Shown here piece by piece: positions 3,174-13,744 of a stretch of DNA of 40,764 nt. The notes beneath the pieces were generated by a model. It saw only the letters and a program-made list of their open reading frames with translations, was not told where the DNA came from and did no database searches. Source of the DNA: Prochlorococcus sp. AG-463-P14 (GTDB lineage: Bacteria; Cyanobacteriota; Cyanobacteriia; PCC-6307; Cyanobiaceae); NCBI GenBank assembly GCA_003209275.1, contig QCRX01000004.1, forward strand, positions 1 through 40,764, read 5' to 3'. Within the stretch, counting starts at the first letter, position 1. The number at the start of each line of letters is the position of its first letter. The translations under genes and the position numbers were made by a program.

Positions 3174-4358
3174 ATGACGCGATTTATCCATTCAGCCGAT
3201 TGGCAAATAGGGAAGCCCTATCTAAATATAAAAGATGAACTAAAGCGATTTAGGCTTCAAGAAGAACGTGTGCATGCCATAAGACGTATTAGAGATGCAG
3301 CAAAGGCTCAGGCTTCGCATTTTGTTTTAGTAGCAGGAGACTTGTTCGATTCGCCGACCCCTTCAACTACCACCGTATTAGAAGTCCTTGAGGCGATTGG
3401 AGAGATGGAGGTACCTGTATTTGTCATCCCTGGGAATCACGACTACGGAGCTCTGGGAACAGTTTGGTATCGAGATGATTTTCAGCGTCATCACAATCAG
3501 TTAGCTCCCAACCTTAAACTTTTACTAAAGAGACAACCATTTGAAATTGATCAAGCGGTCATTCTTCCATGTCCTTTACTACGCAATAAGGACAATGCTG
3601 ATCCCACACTTTGGGTGCAAAATTTTGAATGGAAGAAGTTGTCTGTTACTAAACCTCGGATAGTGCTTGCTCATGGGGGTGTACATGACTTTGTCGGACG
3701 GGATTATCTATTTGATGAAGAGGCTCAGAATGGTTCAAATAACATAATTAATTTAGAGAACCTCCCTGCGAATGAAATCGACTACATCGCTTTGGGCGAT
3801 TGGCATAATCTGAAGCAAGTCAACTCACGAGCTTGGTATTCAGGCACACCAGAGCCGGATCGTTTTGATCAAGGATGTGACAATCACCGTGGACAAGTTT
3901 TACATGTAGAGGTTGATCGAGGCTCTCTCCCAAAAGTTCGGCCTCTACTTACTGGACGTATAAAGTGGCACAATCTAACTTTTAAGTTTACCGATGATAA
4001 GGATCTTGAAACTCTTGAACGTCAGATACAAGCATTAACTGATGGGCGAGTTTCTCGAGATTTGATGAGGATAGAGATTAGTGGAGCACTAAGTCTTGCG
4101 GGACATTGTCGATATGAGCAATTAAAGTCTGATCTAGAAAATACATTATTGAGACTCAGAGTTAAAGGTGAATGTCATAAAGAACCAGAAGCGGAAGAAC
4201 TTGAAAAGTTAACAACACATTTACAAGACCCATTAATTGCTCAAGTAGCTACTCAGCTTCAACAACGCCTACAGAAAGAAAAAAAACAAGATTCTGAGGA
4301 AGCATCCATAACTCGCACAGCACTTTGTGAGTTGTATCGCTTTGCAATGAGCAGTTAA
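3174..4358 (+). CDS. SbcD/Mre11/YhaO-like metallophosphoesterase (DNA repair nuclease)
   Basis: A 394 aa calcineurin-like phosphoesterase with the ordered metal-binding motifs of Mre11/SbcD nucleases: HSADWQIG (residues 6-13), GDLFD (55-59), GNHDY (87-91), AHGGVHD (166-172) and GDWHN (208-212). SGTPEPDRF (223-231) is the strand that caps the active site in this family. The family cuts DNA ends and hairpins in a complex with an SMC-like ATPase. The ATPase gene follows after five bases, which supports a nuclease-ATPase operon. The N-terminus is closer to YhaO-type proteins than to E. coli SbcD; this is inference from the partner's architecture. The C-terminal 130 residues are charged and probably form the partner-binding helix region. 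Confidence 0.85.
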   Translation: MTRFIHSADWQIGKPYLNIKDELKRFRLQEERVHAIRRIRDAAKAQASHFVLVAGDLFDSPTPSTTTVLEVLEAIGEMEVPVFVIPGNHDYGALGTVWYRDDFQRHHNQLAPNLKLLLKRQPFEIDQAVILPCPLLRNKDNADPTLWVQNFEWKKLSVTKPRIVLAHGGVHDFVGRDYLFDEEAQNGSNNIINLENLPANEIDYIALGDWHNLKQVNSRAWYSGTPEPDRFDQGCDNHRGQVLHVEVDRGSLPKVRPLLTGRIKWHNLTFKFTDDKDLETLERQIQALTDGRVSRDLMRIEISGALSLAGHCRYEQLKSDLENTLLRLRVKGECHKEPEAEELEKLTTHLQDPLIAQVATQLQQRLQKEKKQDSEEASITRTALCELYRFAMSS

Positions 4359-4363
4359 GGGTT

Positions 4364-7105
4364 ATGCGTCTTATTAGTTGTCATCTTCAAAACGTACGAG
4401 TTCATAGTGATTTGTTTGTGGAGTTTTCATCTGGCATCACTTTGATTGGCGGAGCTAATGAATCTGGTAAAAGTACTTTGATAGAGGCTCTTCATCGAGC
4501 TTTATTTCTAAAGGCTTCAGCAACTGGTGGACCAGTCGAAAGTCTCAGATCAAAGTCTTATTTAGGTCATCCAATAGTTCAGTTAACTTTTGAAGCAAGA
4601 GGTGAGGTATATAGCTTACGGAAATGTTTTAGTGGTAGTTCTGGTCAAATCACTCTTAATAGTCAAACTAGTGGAAGTCAACTTTCAGGTCCAATTGCAG
4701 AGGACTTTTTAGCTGGTTTGTTAGGAGTAAAAGAAATACTTGGTAGTCGTCAGGCAAATAATCTTTTGCCAACTCGTTGGGCTCATCTTTGGGTGATGCA
4801 AGGATTTGCAGGAAAAGATCTCTTTAAAACAAGTAAAGCTAATTATGATTGTGATTCTTTGCTTAATCAGTTAGAAAAAGGAGGTGGAGCAGCAATTCAG
4901 CAGTCAACTCATGATCAACGAGTTAGCCAATTAATTGATAATGCCTTAGATGAAAATTTTACGAGTCGTGGCATAAAAAAAAATTCCTCTTTGTGGAAGC
5001 ACAAGGAGGAGCTAGATGCTGCTGAGAGGGATTTAAAGTCAGCTTTTTCAAAACAATTAGAATATGAGAAGGCCAATGAGGAATTAGTTGAAATAAGTAA
5101 AAGAATTGAACAATTACAAAACATTGAACTGCCTAAATATCTTGATCAAAAACGAGTCTTGTCAGAAGGAACCGATGAGATTTTACGTCTTCAGACGAAA
5201 ATAACTCTTCTTGAGACTGAATTAGAACCAATTAAACTAAGATCCCAAGCAATTCAAAAGATTTCATTTGAACTTAATGAGCTTTGTGAGGAAATTAAAT
5301 CTAGGGAGGAAAAACGAGTTGATTTACAAAAAAAACATGTTGAATTTGAATCAAATCGATTGATTCTGTTTAATGACATTAAATTAAAGAGAGACGTACT
5401 TTTAAGCCTTAAGAAAAAGTTGCAAAAAATAGAACAGCAACGTTATTTGTTTCAACTATTAGTAGATCGATCAAGATCAAAAGAAACTATTTCAAGATTA
5501 AATATTGATTTGCAAAAAAATCAAATTTCATCAGAAAAGATAAATGATTTAAAAAAAGAAATAGCTTCTCTTTCAAAAATAGAACGTTCTGATATAGAGG
5601 ATATGCGAGATATTCAGCAACGTATGCGGGATATTCTTATTCAACAGAGAACTATGGCAATAAGCCTAAAAGTATTAAGATCTAATCAAACGATATCTAT
5701 CAATGGTAAAGAATTATGTGAAGGTCAGAAAAAAAGAATCGATGAGGATTTTCAGCTCAAAATTGGGGACGATGTTTTATTAGAGGTTTGTCCAGGAGGT
5801 GGAGATGCTCTTAGTGATTTAAAAAATCAATACTCAGCAATTGAAAAAGAATTTTCTCAAAGGCTTTCTGGTTTTGGATTAACTTCTATAGAAGTTGCCT
5901 CAATGCATTTTGAGAAACGGATAGGTATAGAAAAACAACTCTCTATTTTGGAAGCATCTTCTCCGACTAATATACAAACATTGAAGAACGATTTAAATGA
6001 GTTAAATCTGAAGACACTTGAGCTTAATAATAAACTCTCATCTTTAGAAGTTTGTCGAAGAGAATTTGAAATGGATCAATCTATACCTAATAGTCTTATT
6101 GACCTTATTTCTCTTCAGCAAAAAGTTCAATCAACATATAGCCATACTTCTTTAGCATATAATAATGCAGAATATGAACTTGAAGCAGCTCAGGCCAGTT
6201 ATCAAAACTTAATTGATAGTCAAGCAAATCATAATAGCGATCTTAAAGTCATTGAGAATGTTCTCAGCGATCGCCAAGAAAAAGTTGGCAATCTTAAAAA
6301 ACAATATGGCAATGATGACTCGTTAAAATCTCAGCTGAGTGTGCATAAGAAAGTTCTTATGAATGGTCAAGAGAATTTAATTAAATTAAAAAGTCAATTA
6401 AAATCACTGTCAAGTCTAAAAGCTAATGATGACTTAAGGAATCTTCAAACTAAGATTAAAGTTCTTGAAGAAAATAAAGAGCATTTAATAGCTCAGATGG
6501 GAGCTGCAAAGAGAACTTGTGATGAAATAAGTTCTAATAATCCATATTCTGAGGTTGAGAATGCAGAAGTTAAATTAGAGATAGTTCGAGATGAATATCA
6601 AAATATTTTGAGAATTACAGAAGCACAAAAGCTTTTACAAAAGCTTTTTCTTCAAGCTCAGACAGATCTATCAAGGCGTTATACAAAACCTCTGGCAGAG
6701 GCAATAGAAAGTTACCTTAGTCCTTTGGTTTCTGACCGACCTGTCACAAAATTAAGTTTTGATCAGAGCAGTGGTTTTAACAACCTACAAATGAGAAGAG
6801 GCAAAGAGTTCTATGAATTCGATGAACTCAGTGGAGGAATGAAAGAGCAGCTTTCTGCCGCTTTGCGATTGTCAATGGCTGATGTACTTAAAATAGAGAA
6901 TAATGGATGTTTACCGCTTGTATTTGATGATGCTTTTACCAACTCAGATCCGCAAAGAATATTTCTTATAAAACAAATGCTACTTAATGCAGTGGAAAGA
7001 GGACTTCAGATAATTTTTCTTACTTGTGATCCTGATGCTTACGGATCTTTTGGAGATCTTAAAGTCCTTTTAGATCAAGACCATAAATCAATTAAATCTA
7101 ATTAG
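4364..7105 (+). CDS. SbcC/Rad50/YhaN-like SMC-type ATPase without zinc hook
   Basis: A 913 aa ABC-type ATPase split by a long coiled coil. The N-terminal Walker A is GGANESGKST (29-38). The C-terminal half carries the signature LSGGMKEQ (823-830) and Walker B LPLVFDD (850-856). Residues about 190-430 and 485-770 are charged heptad-rich helices. At the apex, where Rad50/SbcC has a CXXC zinc hook, there is a short beta-rich insert instead (about 432-483: SINGKELCEG, KIGDDVLLEVCPGGGDAL) and no CXXC anywhere in the protein. This matches the YhaN-like branch as I remember it. Translation is probably coupled to the nuclease gene, whose stop codon overlaps the AAGGG ribosome site. Confidence 0.85.
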   Translation: MRLISCHLQNVRVHSDLFVEFSSGITLIGGANESGKSTLIEALHRALFLKASATGGPVESLRSKSYLGHPIVQLTFEARGEVYSLRKCFSGSSGQITLNSQTSGSQLSGPIAEDFLAGLLGVKEILGSRQANNLLPTRWAHLWVMQGFAGKDLFKTSKANYDCDSLLNQLEKGGGAAIQQSTHDQRVSQLIDNALDENFTSRGIKKNSSLWKHKEELDAAERDLKSAFSKQLEYEKANEELVEISKRIEQLQNIELPKYLDQKRVLSEGTDEILRLQTKITLLETELEPIKLRSQAIQKISFELNELCEEIKSREEKRVDLQKKHVEFESNRLILFNDIKLKRDVLLSLKKKLQKIEQQRYLFQLLVDRSRSKETISRLNIDLQKNQISSEKINDLKKEIASLSKIERSDIEDMRDIQQRMRDILIQQRTMAISLKVLRSNQTISINGKELCEGQKKRIDEDFQLKIGDDVLLEVCPGGGDALSDLKNQYSAIEKEFSQRLSGFGLTSIEVASMHFEKRIGIEKQLSILEASSPTNIQTLKNDLNELNLKTLELNNKLSSLEVCRREFEMDQSIPNSLIDLISLQQKVQSTYSHTSLAYNNAEYELEAAQASYQNLIDSQANHNSDLKVIENVLSDRQEKVGNLKKQYGNDDSLKSQLSVHKKVLMNGQENLIKLKSQLKSLSSLKANDDLRNLQTKIKVLEENKEHLIAQMGAAKRTCDEISSNNPYSEVENAEVKLEIVRDEYQNILRITEAQKLLQKLFLQAQTDLSRRYTKPLAEAIESYLSPLVSDRPVTKLSFDQSSGFNNLQMRRGKEFYEFDELSGGMKEQLSAALRLSMADVLKIENNGCLPLVFDDAFTNSDPQRIFLIKQMLLNAVERGLQIIFLTCDPDAYGSFGDLKVLLDQDHKSIKSN

Positions 7106-7537: not shown

Positions 7538-7753
7538 TTATTTCGAATCATGAGTATCTTCTTTGGGGTAAAGTCTTGCTATTTTCTTGGCCTGTTCCTC
7601 AGCTTTAGAAACTGAATATCTCTTTTCCGCTATACGCCGCAAGACTATTCCAGGGATAAACCAAACTGCTCCTAGAACTACCAGCATGAATATGGGGTTG
7701 TACCAGGTCATGCGCAAGATGCTATCTATCATCTTATTTACAAGTTCGTCCAA
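7538..7753 (-). CDS. 71 aa small membrane protein
   Basis: MDELVNKMIDSILRMTWYN leads into one membrane span (PIFMLVVLGAVWFIPGIVL), followed by a basic stretch (RRIAEKRYSVSKAEEQAKK) and a polar tail. The positive charges after the span suggest that the C-terminus faces the cytoplasm. A second in-frame ATG (residue 8) is possible. No family recognised. Confidence 0.6.
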   Translation of the reverse strand: MDELVNKMIDSILRMTWYNPIFMLVVLGAVWFIPGIVLRRIAEKRYSVSKAEEQAKKIARLYPKEDTHDSK

Positions 7754-8004
7754 AGTATAAATCAGGATAATAAGGCACTAGATTTTCTTAAGATCAGTGA
7801 AAGAAGAATAGGCAAATCTGTTTATATTGCATTATTCGCTTGACAGCTTCTACTTAGTAAAACTTAGAGACTTATTAGAAATAATTAAATACTTTTAATC
7901 CTCTAAAGATTGTCTTAGGTCTTTTACTATTTTAGGATTAATGTTTATATGTAATTAACGATGTGTTTTATAGACAACAAGAATTAATAAACTTGCTTTA
8001 AGTC

Positions 8005-8193
8005 TTAGAATCCTTTTGAATTGGATTTTTCTGATATCTTAGATAGCTTTTCCTGATTCCCGTTTAAACGTTTAAAGCCAAAACCAATTCCAACGATAAG
8101 AACTAAAAGGAAAATAACCATTACCCAAATCACTAATGCGGTGGTTGATGACATTCCATTTAGCTTTAACGCCTGAGAGAAATAAGAATCCAT
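8005..8193 (-). CDS. 62 aa membrane protein ending in KGF
   Basis: After a 17-residue polar start there is one long membrane span (TALVIWVMVIFLLVLIVGIGFGF), then a basic lysine- and serine-rich tail ending SNSKGF. The layout and the last three residues match the small protein encoded at 12298-12486. An in-frame ATG at residue 14 is an alternative start. Function unknown. Confidence 0.55.
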   Translation of the reverse strand: MDSYFSQALKLNGMSSTTALVIWVMVIFLLVLIVGIGFGFKRLNGNQEKLSKISEKSNSKGF

Positions 8194-8303
8194 ATTCTAT
8201 AATGTTAATTAGGTTTAGAATTTATTACCATTAGATTCTCACGTAAGATTTGTTTTGAGTGTAATTAGCATATAACTTTAACAATTGCCAACCAATTAGT
8301 TGG

Positions 8304-8393
8304 CTAATCTGACTCGGTTAGTGACCAAACTAGAATCCCAAACCAACTAACAAACATTACAGCCAAGAGAGCGTCTATAAGCCATTGACCCAT
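8304..8393 (-). CDS. 29 aa single-span membrane peptide
   Basis: The frame encodes MGQWLIDALLAVMFVSWFGI and a short tail LVWSLTESD before TAG. An AGAGGG ribosome site lies about nine bases upstream of the ATG, good support for such a short frame. The size resembles one-helix photosystem or NDH subunits, but no known subunit is recognised. Confidence 0.5.
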   Translation of the reverse strand: MGQWLIDALLAVMFVSWFGILVWSLTESD

Positions 8394-8441
8394 ATCAGGT
8401 TTCCCTCTAGCATTTTCTAAACTTACACTTTATCTAAGGCC

Positions 8442-8636
8442 TTACTCTGCATCTGAATAAGATTTAAATATTCTCTTTTCCGCAACTATTATTAAAAGCC
8501 AAGCAACACCAAGAGTAAAACTTAAGTCGTATTGGCCTTTAAGTAAATCAATTACAGACAGAGTACTTGCGAGGATAGCCATTGTGCGGATCACCCATCT
8601 ACCTGGGGTGATCAAGGGCTTTTGTGGGTTCTCCAT
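8442..8636 (-). CDS. 64 aa two-segment membrane protein
   Basis: A proline-containing polar start (MENPQKPLITPGRW) is followed by two hydrophobic segments (VIRTMAILASTLSVIDLL and FTLGVAWLLIIVA) and a short charged tail. The two segments are separated by KGQYDLS, so a helical hairpin in the membrane is likely. No family recognised. Confidence 0.55.
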   Translation of the reverse strand: MENPQKPLITPGRWVIRTMAILASTLSVIDLLKGQYDLSFTLGVAWLLIIVAEKRIFKSYSDAE

Positions 8637-8836
8637 CTTTAAAAACTAAACCACTTCAACAGATTCATGACCAACCATTAATTATAGAATTGAATCATTT
8701 GGTACAAATGTATCTACAAAACCAGAGCTCAAGAGTCTTCGCTCAAGCATTTGATAGATATCTTGTTCGTTCAGGTAATAGTTTTAATGATAGTTTTCTT
8801 AAGTACCAGGATCTTAGAAAAAGTCGGCTTTGCTGA
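8624..8836 (+). CDS. possible 70 aa soluble protein ending inside a terminator
   Basis: A GTG frame with AAGGG five bases upstream encodes a soluble polar protein (IIELNHLVQMYLQNQSSRVF, YLVRSGNSFNDSFLKYQD). Its last codons (RKSRLC) lie in the ascending arm of the terminator at 8818-8842, an arrangement common in compact cyanobacterial genomes. Against it, the first 13 bases overlap the start of the divergent membrane-protein gene. Moderate doubt remains. Confidence 0.4.
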   Translation: MGSPSLKTKPLQQIHDQPLIIELNHLVQMYLQNQSSRVFAQAFDRYLVRSGNSFNDSFLKYQDLRKSRLC

Positions 8837-8842
8837 CTTTTT
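8818..8842. terminator. strong hairpin terminator
   Basis: AAAAAGTC-GGC-TTT-GCT-GACTTTTT is a near-perfect stem with a three-base loop and A/T flanks, so it could end transcripts on both strands. It covers the last codons of the possible 70 aa gene. Confidence 0.75.
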
Positions 8843-9048
8843 GAGCTACATCTAGTTATATCTTTTTGGTATATTTCAGTTTTAATTTGTTAATATTTCA
8901 TTCTAAGTCATTAAACATATGGAGACTATCGATTCATTCTTGGACATTTTGATATAGGATTTTACTTTCACATTGGATTCAGTTGATAAGTAAAACCTTG
9001 CTTTATATCTAATTCCAAAGAAATTGCATCAAGATATAGCTATCTCTT

Positions 9049-9090
9049 AGAAAAGAAAGGCTAATATCTATGAGATCACCTTTCTTTTCT
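9049..9090. terminator. 12-bp inverted repeat, probable terminator of the 60 aa membrane protein gene
   Basis: AGAAAAGAAAGG and CCTTTCTTTTCT are exact inverse complements separated by 18 bases. The repeat lies just past the 3' end of the - strand gene at 9117 and its arm ends in a pyrimidine run, so it probably ends that transcript. The long loop makes it weaker than a classical terminator. Confidence 0.45.
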
Positions 9091-9116
9091 AATATTTACG
9101 TAAGTTTCTATATAGA

Positions 9117-9299
9117 TTAAACGTCTTTAACTGTATAGCCTTCTTTTGTGAAAAAGCTTGTATATCCATCTTTCGCACGTGCCCTTAGGACAATGATATG
9201 AACTGGGATTGCAATTATTGTATGGAAAAAAGTAAGAAGCCAAAAGTCCATAGGAACTCCTGGTTGGCCATAAATTGCAAAAAGAGGTGATGAAAACAT
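9117..9299 (-). CDS. 60 aa small membrane protein
   Basis: A short N-terminal hydrophobic stretch (MFSSPLFAIYG) and one main span (FWLLTFFHTIIAIPVHIIVL) are followed by a basic and aromatic tail (RARAKDGYTSFFTKEGYTV). ATG at residue 17 is an alternative start. No family recognised. Confidence 0.55.
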   Translation of the reverse strand: MFSSPLFAIYGQPGVPMDFWLLTFFHTIIAIPVHIIVLRARAKDGYTSFFTKEGYTVKDV

Positions 9300-9483
9300 C
9301 TTTAGAAGTTGTACTCCTATTATCTTCTATCTTAAACCCTTTATTTTTAAACTTACTATTTAAAAGTTAATGGACGTAGCTTCACGCACTAGAAAAAACT
9401 TAAAGATGTAACTAAAAGCAGGCCTCTTTGTTATTACAGCACTTTTTTAGGTGAAATTACTACATTTAAAGGTATCATTGTTT

Positions 9484-10320
9484 CTAGAGGTGCGCTGTTA
9501 GGGTAACTGCTCGAAACTCAATACCTTCTAGAACCTTCCAGGGCTTATCAGATCGATCTGCAAATATAACTTCCTTAAAGCCTAATTCTTGAAAATCCTC
9601 TAGGAATCTCTCTTCTTGCCAGGCCCCACTAATGCATCCGCTCCAAAGATCTGAATCTTTTTGAAGCCTAAGTGGAACTTCTTTGTTACTTACGATGTCG
9701 CTTATTGCCACTCTCCCCATAGGACTTAAAACACGGCGAATGTTTTTAAGCAAACGAATGCGGGCGGAGGGGTTTACCAGGTTTAGAACGCAATTGCTGA
9801 GAACTATATTCACGCTTGAGCTTCTAACAATTTGTACGTTGTTCGTGTCTTTCTCATCGAGAGACTCGATAGAACCTTTGATGAAGTTAACGTTGCTATA
9901 ACCTATCTTTTTGGCAACTATTTGTGCGGCATTCTTTGCTAGGGAAAGCATCTCTTCACTCCTATCAATTCCAATAACAGAACCAGATCTGCCTACTATT
10001 TGAGAGCAAATAAATGCATTTTTTCCTCCTCCGCTACCAAGATCAAGTACGTGGTCTCCTCGCTTAACCCATCTTGTGGGGTCACCGCATCCATAATCTC
10101 TTTCTATAACGTCATTTGGAATAACTTCTAAAAATCTTGGATTAAAACCTACTGGTGTGCATAAGCATGCTTCCTTGGCTTTGGCAGCAGCGCCATACCT
10201 AGCTTCTACAGCCTGATTCTGGTTCAGTGGCTTTGAATCCTGATTATTTAGATCCTCGTTACAGCAAGTATTCGCCAAGGACGGAAACCACTCTTTGTAC
10301 CATTTTCTTAGTCTACCCAT
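9484..10320 (-). CDS. ArsM-like SAM-dependent methyltransferase (arsenite methyltransferase candidate)
   Basis: A 278 aa class I methyltransferase with the SAM-binding motif VLDLGSGGGK (91-100) and the acidic strand end GIDRSEEML (117-125). The cysteines that bind As(III) in ArsM have plausible counterparts with near-family spacing: C78 in DYGCGDP, C177 in SNCVLNLV and C229 in SGCISGA. There is also a CC pair at 19-20. SNCVLNL and the YGCG context are typical of ArsM as I know it. The expected reaction is stepwise methylation of arsenite with SAM; selenium or another thiophilic metalloid is an alternative. It stands alone with no arsR or arsB next to it. A perfect hairpin lies in its leader (10353-10387). 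Confidence 0.65.
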   Translation of the reverse strand: MGRLRKWYKEWFPSLANTCCNEDLNNQDSKPLNQNQAVEARYGAAAKAKEACLCTPVGFNPRFLEVIPNDVIERDYGCGDPTRWVKRGDHVLDLGSGGGKNAFICSQIVGRSGSVIGIDRSEEMLSLAKNAAQIVAKKIGYSNVNFIKGSIESLDEKDTNNVQIVRSSSVNIVLSNCVLNLVNPSARIRLLKNIRRVLSPMGRVAISDIVSNKEVPLRLQKDSDLWSGCISGAWQEERFLEDFQELGFKEVIFADRSDKPWKVLEGIEFRAVTLTAHL

Positions 10321-10352
10321 CTTCTACCCCCTAATGACTCATGGGATTGCTA

Positions 10353-10387
10353 TGCCAAGAAGCCTTTGATCAATAGGCTTCTTGGCA
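10353..10387. promoter_or_regulatory. perfect 13-bp inverted repeat in the methyltransferase leader
   Basis: TGCCAAGAAGCCT and AGGCTTCTTGGCA are exact inverse complements with a nine-base loop (ttgatcaat). The element begins 33 bases upstream of the methyltransferase start and has no T-run on either side, so it is not an ordinary terminator. It could be an mRNA leader structure or a double-stranded operator. Confidence 0.6.
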
Positions 10388-10611
10388 CACCTTCTAGAGG
10401 CGGTTGCATGTAGGCATATTTATAAATTTATAGATTTTAATTATTTGTTAGCCCTTGCTTTCTTAGGCGTTCTTTGTTCTTATTAGCTTAATTTATTAGT
10501 TTTTCAGATGTCGATCTTTCTATGCTGTGATTATTAGCAGCTTTACTGTTGCTTTTTAATAACTTTTTAAGAGATTTCACCATCAAGGTCTAATCGACCT
10601 AAAAGTTAGAT

Positions 10612-11148
10612 ATGCCTGAAGAAAACTTTCCCGACTTTTCTAGAGAACTTAAGCATCTCGTCAGATGGCTTCGAGATGCTCTTATCTCTTTGCGTGAATT
10701 GTGTGTACTGGCTATTGCGCTTGTAATTGTTCTCAGTGAGAAGTTATTGGCGATCCTTAGGGAATGGAAGCAGTCAAGGGTAGACAGACCTTTGCCACAG
10801 CCTCAAAACGCCTTTAAGAGAACTAATCCTCTTGAGAGAGATCAAGACAAACCGATGCCTGATAATTCAGATAAAGAATTGAAGCGGATAAAAAAAATAG
10901 TAATTTCTGATAAATCAGATCTTGAGTCTGAATCACCACGTAAGAGCTTTTCTGTAGGTAGTTTTGCTTATCAAATTTTTGCTGGAATTAGTACCTTGGC
11001 CTTAGTGATAGGGGTTGGAAAGCTTGGCCCAATATCCCAGTGGGCGAACACCCAAAATGAATGTATCGAGAGGTCAGAGAGTATTGATGGTACTAAGAAT
11101 GATGATCTTCCCGTTAAGGTGATGATTTGTAATGGTGGACACGAATAA
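10612..11148 (+). CDS. two-span protein with CNGG tail domain (paralogue A)
   Basis: A 178 aa product with two parts. Residues 1-65 hold an amphipathic and hydrophobic helix (ELCVLAIALVIVLSEKLLAI), followed by a long polar linker. The last 60 residues form a second unit: a membrane span (GISTLALVIGVGKLGPI), the motif QWANTQNECIER, a variable polar stretch and VKVMICNGG near the end. This second unit is repeated in the gene at 11729-11941. The two conserved cysteines could form a disulfide outside the membrane. No known family recognised. Confidence 0.6.
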   Translation: MPEENFPDFSRELKHLVRWLRDALISLRELCVLAIALVIVLSEKLLAILREWKQSRVDRPLPQPQNAFKRTNPLERDQDKPMPDNSDKELKRIKKIVISDKSDLESESPRKSFSVGSFAYQIFAGISTLALVIGVGKLGPISQWANTQNECIERSESIDGTKNDDLPVKVMICNGGHE

Positions 11149-11728
11149 AAGTACTAAGGGCTTGAAGCCAGAGCTATAGGAATTCTTTTAAAGCGTCTTA
11201 GGTCCTACGTAGTTCTTATCTGTTTATCAGAATTAACCAAGCTTTCAGATTATTTCTATCCTTGACATCATTTATAGGCTTTTTTCTTCAAAATCTGCGA
11301 ATGTGGCCTTGTTGTTTAATCTCGAGGAAAAATTAAAAAATCTCTAGACGCTATATGTATGGCTAGCTACGCATATCACGCTAGAAAGCACTATTTGTAG
11401 AGGGGTTGTTTTTATTAGCTTTTTCTCCTAGAAATCGTATTCCCCATCACCCAGCCCTGTGCAATTTGCACGGGCTTTTTTTTTACAAGAATTTAATTTG
11501 TTCTATTAGTATTTTGAAAGCCTGGCTTTAGTTACCAATTGGAGCTTTTCATAGGAAGCAGTGTCGATAGGTGCCTTTTTTTTTATGGGGCTATCAGTAA
11601 GCACTTCGGTCTCTGATTCAGATAGTTACGGCCCTTCTCGATCAAGTCCAAACTTTTGAGCCGATTCTTCATGGATTGATCTATTTTTGATTTGTCTGGA
11701 TAAATTACTAATCAGGTATCTATTTTTT
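11149..11728. other. gene-free 580-base spacer with an orphan terminator
   Basis: No protein gene of normal length is visible between the two paralogues. A 13-codon ATG frame (MASYAYHARKHYL, 11359-11400) precedes the strong terminator at 11453-11484, but it has no ribosome site. The terminator implies a transcript ending here, either a long 3' extension of the upstream gene or a separate small RNA beginning somewhere after about 11200. Confidence 0.5.
11453..11484 (+). terminator. strong rho-independent terminator without an obvious gene
   Basis: AGCCC-T-GTGC and GCAC-GGGCT pair around a short AATTT loop with one bulged base, followed by nine T. The GC-rich stem and long T-run are textbook. 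It lies 300 bases after the nearest + strand stop codon. Confidence 0.8.
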
Positions 11729-11941
11729 ATGCAACCTAGGGAAATTATTAGGTCTCACGCCTATCCAGTCTTTGCCGCTATCAGCACATTTAGTCTTTTG
11801 CTCATCGGTTTGTCGATGGTTCCTATTGCGCAGTGGGCCAAGACTCAAAACGAATGCATAGAGAGGACTTTTCGCATTAATGGATCAAATAATGCTGGAA
11901 TTCCCTCAAAAGTATGGAGTTGCAATGGTGGTGGGGATTGA
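11729..11941 (+). CDS. small membrane protein with CNGG tail domain (paralogue B)
   Basis: From the ATG at 11729 the product is 70 aa (84 aa from an upstream TTG at 11687). A short basic start (MQPREIIRSHAYPV) leads into a membrane span (AAISTFSLLLIGLSMVPI), then QWAKTQNECIER and SKVWSCNGGGD. It is clearly paralogous to the last 60 residues of the gene at 10612-11148, sharing WA-TQNECIER and CNGG with the same spacing, although the DNA has diverged widely. The tail with its two cysteines probably lies outside the membrane. Function unknown. Confidence 0.6.
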   Translation: MQPREIIRSHAYPVFAAISTFSLLLIGLSMVPIAQWAKTQNECIERTFRINGSNNAGIPSKVWSCNGGGD

Positions 11942-12112
11942 CGTCAATTTACTTATTGTGAGAATCGATTGGTATGACTTCGAGCTCTTCTCTTAAAGAG
12001 CTACAGCTAATGACTCTTGCTTTTTATCTGAGCTCTATTGGTTAGAAGAGCCTTTAACGAGAACAAAAGTTACTTTCGCAAATCTTTTGCGCGACCTAGG
12101 AGAGTTTTAGCT

Positions 12113-12259
12113 ATGTTCCTTCTTCTTTGTTCAAATTCCGTGTTACCTCCATTTAGTCTTTATTCAGGTGCTTATGTCGGGCTGTTATTGATTTCTATTG
12201 GAGTGTTTAATGAAATGTTCTCACAGAACCGTTCAAGCATTTTTAATTCTCGCAGTTAG
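12113..12259 (+). CDS. 48 aa small membrane protein
   Basis: The ATG at 12113 follows a GGAGAG ribosome site by about eight bases and opens MFLLLCSNSVLPPFSLYSG, then a second hydrophobic stretch (AYVGLLLISIGVF) and a polar tail. A longer in-frame version from a TTG at 12038 would add a basic 25-residue N-terminus; the ribosome site favours the shorter one. No family recognised. Confidence 0.45.
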   Translation: MFLLLCSNSVLPPFSLYSGAYVGLLLISIGVFNEMFSQNRSSIFNSRS

Positions 12260-12297
12260 CTTAGTTAACTATTTTCTACGATTATATTAAAACTCGT

Positions 12298-12486
12298 TTA
12301 AAAACCTTTTTGGTCCTTCTCTTTTTTAGAAGAAACTGGTTCTGACTTCTTTTTATTTAACTTAACCAAGAGAAGTTTTATACCATTTCCTAGAGAACGT
12401 AAAATTAACACGGCAAATGCAACCCATCCTGCTGCTATTGCAACAGTCAGCAACGTTGTTCCTAAACCATCAGAAGCATTTACCAT
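12298..12486 (-). CDS. 62 aa membrane protein ending in KGF
   Basis: MVNASDGLGTTLLTVAIAAG opens a single span that continues WVAFAVLILRSL, followed by a basic lysine-rich tail ending KDQKGF. Length, topology and C-terminus match the protein at 8005-8193, although the spans differ in sequence. The ATG at 12486 is chosen over a TTG two codons upstream. Function unknown. Confidence 0.55.
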   Translation of the reverse strand: MVNASDGLGTTLLTVAIAAGWVAFAVLILRSLGNGIKLLLVKLNKKKSEPVSSKKEKDQKGF

Positions 12487-12492
12487 TTGCAA

Positions 12493-12799
12493 AACCTATA
12501 TTAGACATTATGATATTAATAATCAATTTTAACAAAAGCTCACATCACATCTATATCGGACTCTTCGCTTCTAAAGATCAAGATTGATTGTTAATTTAGC
12601 TTCTTTCTAAGACTTGTCTATTTTTTACATAACTATTCTTGCTCTGCATCTTTAATGCATAGACATTATTTTCTCATTCAATGAATACATAATTTTTTCA
12701 ATCCCTCACAAATCCTTCTGATAAATCAACAACCATCAACATTTTATTCCCTTTTTGCTCATAATAATATATGATATCTGAGTAACAATTCACTTGTAC
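12493..12799. other. gene-free AT-rich spacer
   Basis: A divergent intergenic region between two small membrane-protein genes. I see only very short frames, the best being 14 codons on the - strand, and no hairpin of note. It should contain promoters for both flanking genes, but none can be fixed with confidence. Confidence 0.4.
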
Positions 12800-12934
12800 A
12801 TGCACCTATCTAATATATTGATATGGGCCTCTATCCCTTTCGTGTTAATTACGGCATATTTTGGAACTCGAAATGGATATTATGACAGCGAAAAATATGA
12901 TGGTGATGGCTGTGCTCACGATGTTCAAAGGTAG
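12800..12934 (+). CDS. 44 aa single-span membrane protein
   Basis: The frame begins MHLSNILIWASIPFVLITAY, a membrane span, and continues FGTRNGYYDSEKYDGDG, then CAHDVQR and TAG. The aromatic and acidic tail (NGYYDSEKYDGDGCAH) has the look of a conserved small thylakoid-membrane subunit and is unlikely to arise by chance in AT-rich spacer DNA. No named subunit is recognised. Confidence 0.55.
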   Translation: MHLSNILIWASIPFVLITAYFGTRNGYYDSEKYDGDGCAHDVQR

Positions 12935-13014
12935 GTTAAATAGTTATTAACCATTAATAATTCCTATAGAGATTACTTTTAGGTCTAAACTTACTTTAGA
13001 AATCTATCGAGTAT

Positions 13015-13224
13015 ATGAGCCCTCTGATTTATAATATAGTTTTTACCACAACCTTTTGGAGACCTCCTCACAACCTTTTATTATTTACTCTTATTGCTGG
13101 TGCCATTCTCACCGCAAACTTAACTCTTTTAGTATTAACCTTTTACGAGGATCATTATTGGAGTGATAAGAAGTATCGTGAAGAGTTAAGATTAAATTCT
13201 CAAGTAAAGAAAAAGAAAGCTTGA
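13015..13224 (+). CDS. 69 aa small membrane protein
   Basis: A hydrophobic start (MSPLIYNIVFTTTFW) and a main span (LLLFTLIAGAILTANLTLLVL) are followed by an acidic and aromatic linker (TFYEDHYWSDKKYREEL) and a polylysine end. The lysine-rich end suggests a cytoplasmic C-terminus. It lies 80 bases after the 44 aa gene on the same strand and may be co-transcribed. No family recognised. Confidence 0.55.
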   Translation: MSPLIYNIVFTTTFWRPPHNLLLFTLIAGAILTANLTLLVLTFYEDHYWSDKKYREELRLNSQVKKKKA

Positions 13225-13351
13225 TTTAAAACATGCCATCTAAGATGAAGGACTATCTTCCGTGAAGCTCGATCTTTGTTGAATTGAGGATATTGATTTT
13301 TTCTTGGCTGGTATTTATTGATGAGGCTTCTGATCACAAAAACACATCGAA

Positions 13352-13744
13352 TTAACCTCCATCAACCTGACAACCGATCATTGCTCCTCCAACGGCTCCT
13401 GCTGGGATTGCCCACCATCTGTCTTTACCCCTTGAACTACTTGTAGCAAGTCCTGCCCCTAGTAGACCACCTATGAGACTTCCTTCAGAGCAGTCATTAT
13501 TGTCAACTTGAGAATGAGGCCCTCCCTTATAGGCATTTGCTGAGTTGCCAGTGCAAGGCACTTCAACAATTTCATTCCAGCTTTTTACGTACCCAGGTGA
13601 ATCTTGATTGCCAGGAACATATTCTTCTCTGTACTCATTACGTGTACAAGTTTGCGACTTGGAGTATCCAGGTTGATACTCTCCTGCGTTTACGCTCGAA
13701 AAACTGGTGAGAGTCGCGAAAAGAGTTGCTAGAACAAGCTTCAT
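13352..13744 (-). CDS. secreted glycine-zipper protein of unknown function
   Basis: A 130 aa product with a signal peptide (MKLVLATLFATLTSFSSVNA, cut before GEYQPG). The middle has four cysteines and a YREEYVPG segment. The C-terminal 45 residues have a glycine-zipper pattern (GSLIGGLLGAGLATSS, AIPAGAVGGAMIGCQ) as in outer-membrane or envelope-associated Gly-zipper domains. There is no lipobox cysteine at the cleavage site. An envelope location is inferred; function unknown. Confidence 0.65.
   Translation of the reverse strand: MKLVLATLFATLTSFSSVNAGEYQPGYSKSQTCTRNEYREEYVPGNQDSPGYVKSWNEIVEVPCTGNSANAYKGGPHSQVDNNDCSEGSLIGGLLGAGLATSSSRGKDRWWAIPAGAVGGAMIGCQVDGG

Follow-up and report, generated by a model that had tools for sequence, protein, structure and literature searches.

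A lineage-restricted family of small membrane proteins in Prochlorococcus and its close relatives, with an invariant cysteine pair and a probable coiled-coil stalk

Our analyses assign two neighbouring genes of Prochlorococcus sp. AG-463-P14, here called the long form and the short form, to a family of bitopic coiled-coil membrane proteins which, as far as sequence comparison goes, combines a constant order of modules, two invariant cysteines, a stalk lengthened in heptad steps, old paralogy and taxonomic limits among the genomes sampled. Beyond these features we infer an outward orientation, a disulfide, the number of chains and a role of the cap as a binding surface. In the reading that we prefer, to which we give a probability of about 0.5, the proteins are bitopic and oligomerised through a coiled-coil stalk, are oriented outwards and carry a disulfide-closed cap outside the cytoplasm. 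What is new is the family, not the principle.

Both genes lie in a stretch of 40,764 nucleotides from contig QCRX01000004.1, analysed at its full length and referred to as the window (Table 1). The last 60 residues of the long form align with the short form without a gap, 31 of the 60 being identical, and the motifs WA.TQNECIER and KV..CNGG stand at equal spacing in both, which bears out the proposal of the earlier note that the two tails are paralogous and share a membrane span. The long form was recovered as a match of the short form at E=3.3e-17 in a whole-genome search, and the 70-aa query also found a third, weaker relative on another contig of the same genome (E=0.0045). A 20-row profile raised the total to four members in this 64% complete genome, namely the two window genes, C12:13102-13311 and C20:13138-13302. 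The short form would comprise 84 aa if translated from an alternative TTG start at 11687. Four terminator-like sites were observed in the region against 1.4 expected, of which only the one between the two genes has a long T-run, and since this hairpin and T-run separate them, the genes may constitute separate transcription units. Upstream of the two genes the search found no promoter-like site, and the region as a whole has two such sites against 5.1 expected by chance.

Table 1. Positions of the two genes, their parts and the intervening hairpin in the window, and of small RNA sites in related loci
Feature	Position	Strand	Description or basis
Long-form gene	10612..11148	+	ORF of 178 aa; membrane-stalk-Cys module preceded by an N-terminal hydrophobic helix and a charged linker
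First hydrophobic helix, long form (residues about 23-49)	10678..10758	+	Kyte-Doolittle 2.56 at residues 31-49; AlphaFold helix 8-57
Membrane helix of the shared module, long form (residues 123-141)	10978..11034	+	Ungapped alignment with the 70-aa protein
Cys151-Cys173 cysteine-bounded loop, long form, then NGGHE	11062..11130	+	Alignments A1, A2 and A4, in which neither Cys varies
Terminator-like hairpin (8 pairs) and T-run between long- and short-form genes	11456..11483	+	Terminator-like site search
Short-form gene	11729..11941	+	ORF of 70 aa from ATG at 11729
Membrane helix, short form (residues 15-33)	11771..11827	+	Kyte-Doolittle 2.05; AlphaFold helix 3-29
Pro-led stalk helix, short form (residues 32-45)	11822..11863	+	AlphaFold helix 31-48; spacer lengths; heptad profile of stalked relatives
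Cys43 to C-terminus, short form: 21-residue loop, Cys65, NGGGD end	11855..11938	+	Loop of 21 residues in 69 of 132 members; N-x-C and C-x-G conserved
Small RNA sites by FNxCVE members	L153 5722-5986, L156 6388-6452, L158 5644-5708		Rfam

At the DNA level the two tails are identical in 108 of 180 bases and use the same codon for 13 of the 31 identical residues, and simple Nei-Gojobori counts give a pN of 0.29 against a saturated pS of 0.79, in agreement with the earlier view that the DNA has diverged while the residues were long kept. The short form is 61-74% identical to five relatives, with a pN of 0.14-0.24 and saturated synonymous sites, and the long form differs from two relatives by a pN of about 0.43; pS ranges from 0.75 to 0.87 throughout these comparisons. 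Because pN is low against saturated pS, the window ORFs are coding genes under protein-level selection, of the purifying kind, and an origin as chance ORFs is ruled out.

The window pair most likely represents an old split and not a fresh duplicate, as judged from a tree of 102 rows and 69 columns obtained by a quick method, in which columns are few, 54 of the 99 inner branches are left open and long branches meet. The long forms group with one further row at an SH-aLRT support of 98, the short and long forms come together at 95, and each form has its closer relatives in other genomes, which disfavours recent tandem duplication. Other subfamilies are the CEG-ended (99), WNRC/CNGA (82), FNxCVE (86) and CNGR (88) groups, some subfamilies being common to several genera. 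A long and a short form lie within 4 kb of each other in at least four genomes among the matches listed (G000, G028, G036 and G057), and the side-by-side arrangement occurs in few of the genomes inspected.

Members share a plan consisting of a short N-terminus, one membrane helix, a proline, N-x-C, a spacer, and C-x-G near the C-terminus. In an alignment of 20 members with a mean column identity of 30% (A1), two cysteines and a glycine are invariant, and a leucine, an isoleucine, the proline and the asparagine are nearly so. Using the 20-row profile at E<=1e-4, we gathered 133 distinct members from the relatives' loci, which retain both cysteines in 100%, the asparagine of N-x-C in 94%, the proline in 92% and an Asn or Glu after the second cysteine in 97%; these percentages are partly circular, since a collection based on a profile favours members that keep these residues. 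C-x-G occurs in 130 of the 133, the other three reading CNHS, CNRS and CSKG, and no further Cys or His column exceeds 40%. The membrane helix has a best Kyte-Doolittle mean of 2.07, above 1.6 in 94% of members and 0.18 at the lowest. The loop between the cysteines, measured in 132 members, most often has 21 residues (69 members), followed by 30 (24 members) and 16-17 (19 members), the rest falling between 13 and 29, and the chain ends 3-5 residues past the second cysteine in 108. The window proteins have 21-residue loops followed by CNGG, within the 13-30 residue loop and following x-G by which we recognise the family, and in alignments A1 and A2 their membrane helix ends near the conserved proline, which is followed by N-x-C.

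The stretch from the membrane helix to the first cysteine is very probably a coiled-coil stalk, judging from its steps of seven in length and from the clear heptad pattern of 34 long-stalked relatives. Measured from a leucine of the membrane helix to the first cysteine in 132 members, the spacer has 19 (90 members), 26 (3), 33 (32), 40 (2), 22 (3) or 18 (2) residues, so that 127 of the 132 fall on 19+7n, many rows being near-copies of one another. Read on the tree, these lengths imply about six separate changes, four of which are whole heptads: +14 followed by an extension to +21 within a single branch of short forms, +7 in a pair of long forms, where the addition resembles a tandem copy (RLEPIAERLEPIAR), and +7 in the paralogue L128. 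The two remaining changes, +3 and -1, occurred in different branches and are not heptads. In the short form, the site at which relatives have one, two or three additional heptads lies immediately ahead of the Pro-led stalk helix.

In the 34 members with a spacer of 33 or 40 residues, positions -24, -20, -17, -13 and -10 before the cysteine are hydrophobic in 97-100%, and the remaining positions between -25 and -9, a range picked after viewing the profile, in 0-18%; outside it, hydrophobic residues also occupy -27 and -26, where the membrane helix ends, and -8 to -6, near a Trp. The core of this a/d pattern is occupied by Val, Ile and Leu. Coiled-coil design work has found that isoleucine at both kinds of core position leans towards three chains. 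The two marks of a coiled coil are thus found in the stalked relatives (a/d pattern) and in the spacer lengths (heptad-sized changes). Since the 34 are without exception relatives of the short form and mostly belong to a single clade, the heptad pattern is well established for that clade and extended from it to the rest; in the window proteins, whose stalk is the shortest, it can be assessed over the last heptads only. In the AlphaFold model of the 70-aa form (23 rows; overall pLDDT 78.5, pTM 0.48) the helix breaks just before the conserved proline that opens the last stalk segment, so that stalk and membrane helix may be kinked and not form a single rod. The pLDDT of this model is 94-97 over residues 11-30 and 56-58 over residues 51-70 of the cap.

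VKOR, an enzyme that forms disulfides, was found above cut-off in all 10 near-complete genomes searched (10 of 11 when the window genome is included), and the recovered part of the window's genome (64%) yielded no match; given this enzyme, disulfide chemistry is plausible for the cysteine pair of the family. Lysine and arginine are more numerous on the N-terminal side of the membrane helix in 47 of the 133 members, less so in 31 and equal in 55, as counted in stop-to-stop frames that may include a few residues upstream of the true start, and the positive-inside signal is accordingly weak. The disulfide-closed module outside the cytoplasm proposed previously is therefore compatible with the two invariant cysteines and with VKOR, and receives little from the orienting charge bias.

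The long form adds to this module some 120 residues, for which a long helix followed by a charged and variable linker is predicted. Its fusion to an extra hydrophobic and linker region, already seen in the window sequence by the earlier note, recurs in other genomes: the first hydrophobic stretch reaches Kyte-Doolittle values of 1.64-2.78 in 13 of 14 other long forms and 1.12 in one, and the linker contains repeated Glu/Arg-rich units in the long forms of some genomes (L101, L162). Matches over the full or nearly the full length of the long form occur in 11 of 200 genomes including its own, two of them weak (25-27% identity). The AlphaFold model is poor (pLDDT 67, 6 rows), with a helix at residues 8-57 that reaches pLDDT 83-90 over residues 11-50. 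If this first helix spans the membrane, one end of the protein must lie on an unexpected side, and if both hydrophobic stretches cross the membrane with the linker inside, the N-terminus would be outside; alternatively, the first stretch merely dips into the membrane.

Homologues with the conserved cysteines, whose absence would have counted against the earlier note, extend well beyond this strain and vary in copy number among picocyanobacteria. The 70-aa query, run at a lax limit (E<=0.1) over 400 genomes of the window's taxonomic family, matched 236. The 20-row profile at E<=0.01, run over 223 genomes of the window's order, each at least 95% complete except the window's own, matched 159 genomes spread over 22 of 32 genera and gave no match in the other 64. 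When 194 genomes from across the phylum were searched, 12 matched at E<=0.001, all of them from the window's own family, to which at least one of the 182 misses also belongs (among the 20 misses listed). All 32 closely related loci, retrieved by a search that reaches close relatives only, are titled Prochlorococcus. Within the genomes sampled, the family has therefore been found so far only in Prochlorococcus and close relatives. Profile matches per genome reach 10 in G052 and 8 in G053; by genus, they number 7 and 9 in g40, 3-8 in g56, 7-8 in g30, 4-6 in g11 and 1-6 in g10, as well as 1-5 in g18, g5 and g35 among the matches listed, 1-2 in g46, and one each in 2 of the 18 genomes listed for g6. 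These counts are upper limits for intact genes, since some weak matches have internal stops or cover the N-terminal part only. The genome of Prochlorococcus is among the smallest of free-living phototrophs. Since these streamlined genomes keep and multiply a family, with up to 10 profile matches in some, that the curated libraries searched leave unnamed and that the phylum sample places in this lineage only, its function should be peculiar to these cells. The earlier note, whose interpretation is partly supported, had overlooked the probable coiled-coil stalk, the additional paralogues, and that the proteins are confined to a single cyanobacterial family.

The neighbourhood search suggested by the same note yielded no general neighbour or conserved operon in the loci read. 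A Methyltransf_31 protein is encoded upstream of the long form on the opposite strand, and the order methyltransferase (-), long form (+), short form (+) recurs with a relative of this protein in G036, there with two extra ORFs between the long and short forms. Around the pair, about 6 kb of the window (7538-13337) contain at least eight short ORFs (46-73 aa) with a hydrophobic stretch (Kyte-Doolittle 1.62-3.16), none of which has a Pfam match at E<=0.01. This stretch is bounded on one side by a metallophosphatase and SbcC-like pair, and on the other by an EamA gene and a gene read as DNA primase. The former (3174-7105) resembles an SbcD-SbcC pair, in which a metallophosphatase gene precedes a gene for an SMC/SbcC-like ATPase whose Pfam matches are weak and below cut-off. 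A gene on the reverse strand at 13352-13744 combines a signal-like start with a glycine zipper 2TM domain (PF05433, E=3.1e-8).

Several further observations concern the surroundings of family members in other genomes. Small RNAs adjoin FNxCVE members, Yfr17 just upstream in one genome and Yfr2/Cyano-1 in two others, upstream in one of them and downstream in the other (Table 1), and none was found beside the FNxCVE member in two further loci (L160 and L165); this proximity may reflect chance or a regulatory link. Short proteins with an N-terminal membrane module (R..VNAHLP.VL...ST.SL..IA) and no cysteine tail are encoded near 4598 in L102, near 5253 in L160 and at G039:C1:77597-77791, and a query from one of them matched in 8 of the 16 genomes searched; the membrane helix may represent an independent module. 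In one clade the short form adjoins a conserved small membrane protein (52 aa in L104, 8947-9105), which in two other genomes lies no more than about 2 kb away from it (L098 9976-10146, L005 4203-4397) and which was not seen near the window's copy. Near a family member in L154, the reverse strand (5278-5457) encodes what may be a double-glycine leader peptide (ELTLDQLSAISGG) of the type found in secreted peptides.

Membership in a known family was rejected, as nothing convincing was found in Pfam, NCBIfam, PHROGs, PADLOC or the PDB. Neither the window proteins nor the 20 profile members match Pfam or NCBIfam above the curated cut-offs, the two window proteins have no PHROGs profile match (best E=0.062 and 0.11), a fold search with the short-form model returned a single, meaningless match (E=9.3), and Rfam gave no match at gathering score on the window. 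The ORF at 5787-6041 of L158, which we take to be Pro0591 of strain SS120 from its position and the adjoining yfr2, seems to be a member: it has the same plan of membrane helix, N-x-C and C-N-G, and belongs to a subfamily other than that of the two window proteins. In the accessible table of PMC1242208, Pro0591 appears only as a neighbour of the RNA gene yfr2, and the yfr2 listed there overlaps the Rfam Cyano-1 site next to this ORF in G010. PMM0699 of MED4 may be a further member from its place after Yfr17 in the available part of PMC2518516. The accessible parts of these two papers describe no protein family for Pro0591 or PMM0699, and no publication describing the family was found among titles and abstract openings, a search to which subscription papers mostly do not belong. 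A link to the phage-response genes PMM0684-PMM0686, raised by a similar genome position, was discarded, PMM0684 being given as a DUF1651 gene in the accessible part of PMC5490813.

In the mechanism that we propose, the N-terminus would be cytoplasmic, and a single helix would span the membrane and continue outside as a coiled-coil stalk made of two or three chains. The two invariant cysteines would form a disulfide that closes a small C-terminal cap (N-x-C ... C-N-G-G) atop the stalk, whose length, set mostly in whole heptads, would keep the helical register and fix the height of the cap above the membrane. The cap would most likely make contact with a partner in the periplasm (or thylakoid lumen), and we suggest tentatively that it serves as the binding surface of an envelope partner rather than as part of a thylakoid complex. 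The extra hydrophobic helix and the charged linker of the long form, the latter presumably cytoplasmic, could couple the stalk to something inside. A bolder extension, which we regard as rather unlikely, is a lineage-specific kit of interchangeable, probably trimeric, disulfide-capped stalks tuned in heptads, in which paralogues may mix within an oligomer and the long form would link the cap to the cytoplasm; if true, it would amount to a new envelope (or thylakoid) structure of the Earth's most abundant photosynthetic cells.

Among the alternatives, the proteins could be small subunits or assembly factors of a photosynthetic complex, the helix packing on a photosystem, NDH or antenna with the cap in the lumen, and the paralogues serving different light conditions or complexes. 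We consider this unlikely on balance. A single helix is the typical size of small subunits of photosynthetic complexes, which the family fits, and its membrane helix conserves small and hydroxylated residues across the 133 members, as would be expected for packing. Matches are also numerous in genera presumed to be low-light Prochlorococcus (10 in g53, 8 in g54, 7 in g58, 7 and 9 in g40, 6 in g32 and g27) and few in the presumably high-light g18 (only 1-5 among the matches listed); however, copy number differs between close genomes, and g10, with larger genomes, also has up to 6. Moreover, the loci read contain no steady neighbourhood of photosynthesis genes, and a coiled-coil stalk that changes by heptads is atypical of such subunits.

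An envelope protein for contact with phages, grazers or other cells, diversifying its paralogues under that pressure, as when a periplasmic protein anchored in the membrane excludes a second phage, appears quite unlikely to us. Multiple copies and a window stretch full of small membrane-protein ORFs would suit it, as would the best PADLOC match, a candidate model touched by 2 of the 20 profile members; but at E=0.0071 this match is weak and may reflect the composition of the membrane helix. The window proteins are under purifying selection, and some subfamilies are shared by several genera. Two family members have no relatives in 50,697 phage records and none of 12 pattern matches in IMG/VR was confirmed as a member, which also led us to reject the family as a phage gene.

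A redox or stress relay, whose outer cysteines would switch between disulfide and thiol while the stalk transmits the change to the cytoplasmic part of the long form, could draw on the invariant cysteine pair, the heptad-conserving stalk and the charged linker between the two hydrophobic helices; it is nevertheless improbable, since Pfam and NCBIfam reveal no output domain in the long form and most members read have merely a short part ahead of the membrane helix.

The profile matches in the PDB are weak and consist of the designed coiled coils 8qag (E=0.0057) and 8qkd (E=0.009), which resemble the family in its helical part only, the match stopping short of the cysteine cap, and the likeness is one of composition, not of descent. 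Type IV pilins follow a general plan of N-terminal hydrophobic helix and C-terminal cysteine loop that the family matches, but a pilin-like or pseudopilin-like identity is very improbable, as the processing motif G-F-[ST]-x-x-E is present in none of the 133 members (the looser G-x4-E in 10, at scattered places), no Pfam pilin profile matches any of the 20, and the module can end a longer protein, following about 120 residues in the long form. Lpp-like trimeric coiled-coil proteins of the envelope form a short helical stalk with aliphatic residues at core positions, as the family appears to do; they are anchored by lipid, whereas the members described here are anchored by a membrane helix and end in a cysteine-bounded cap.
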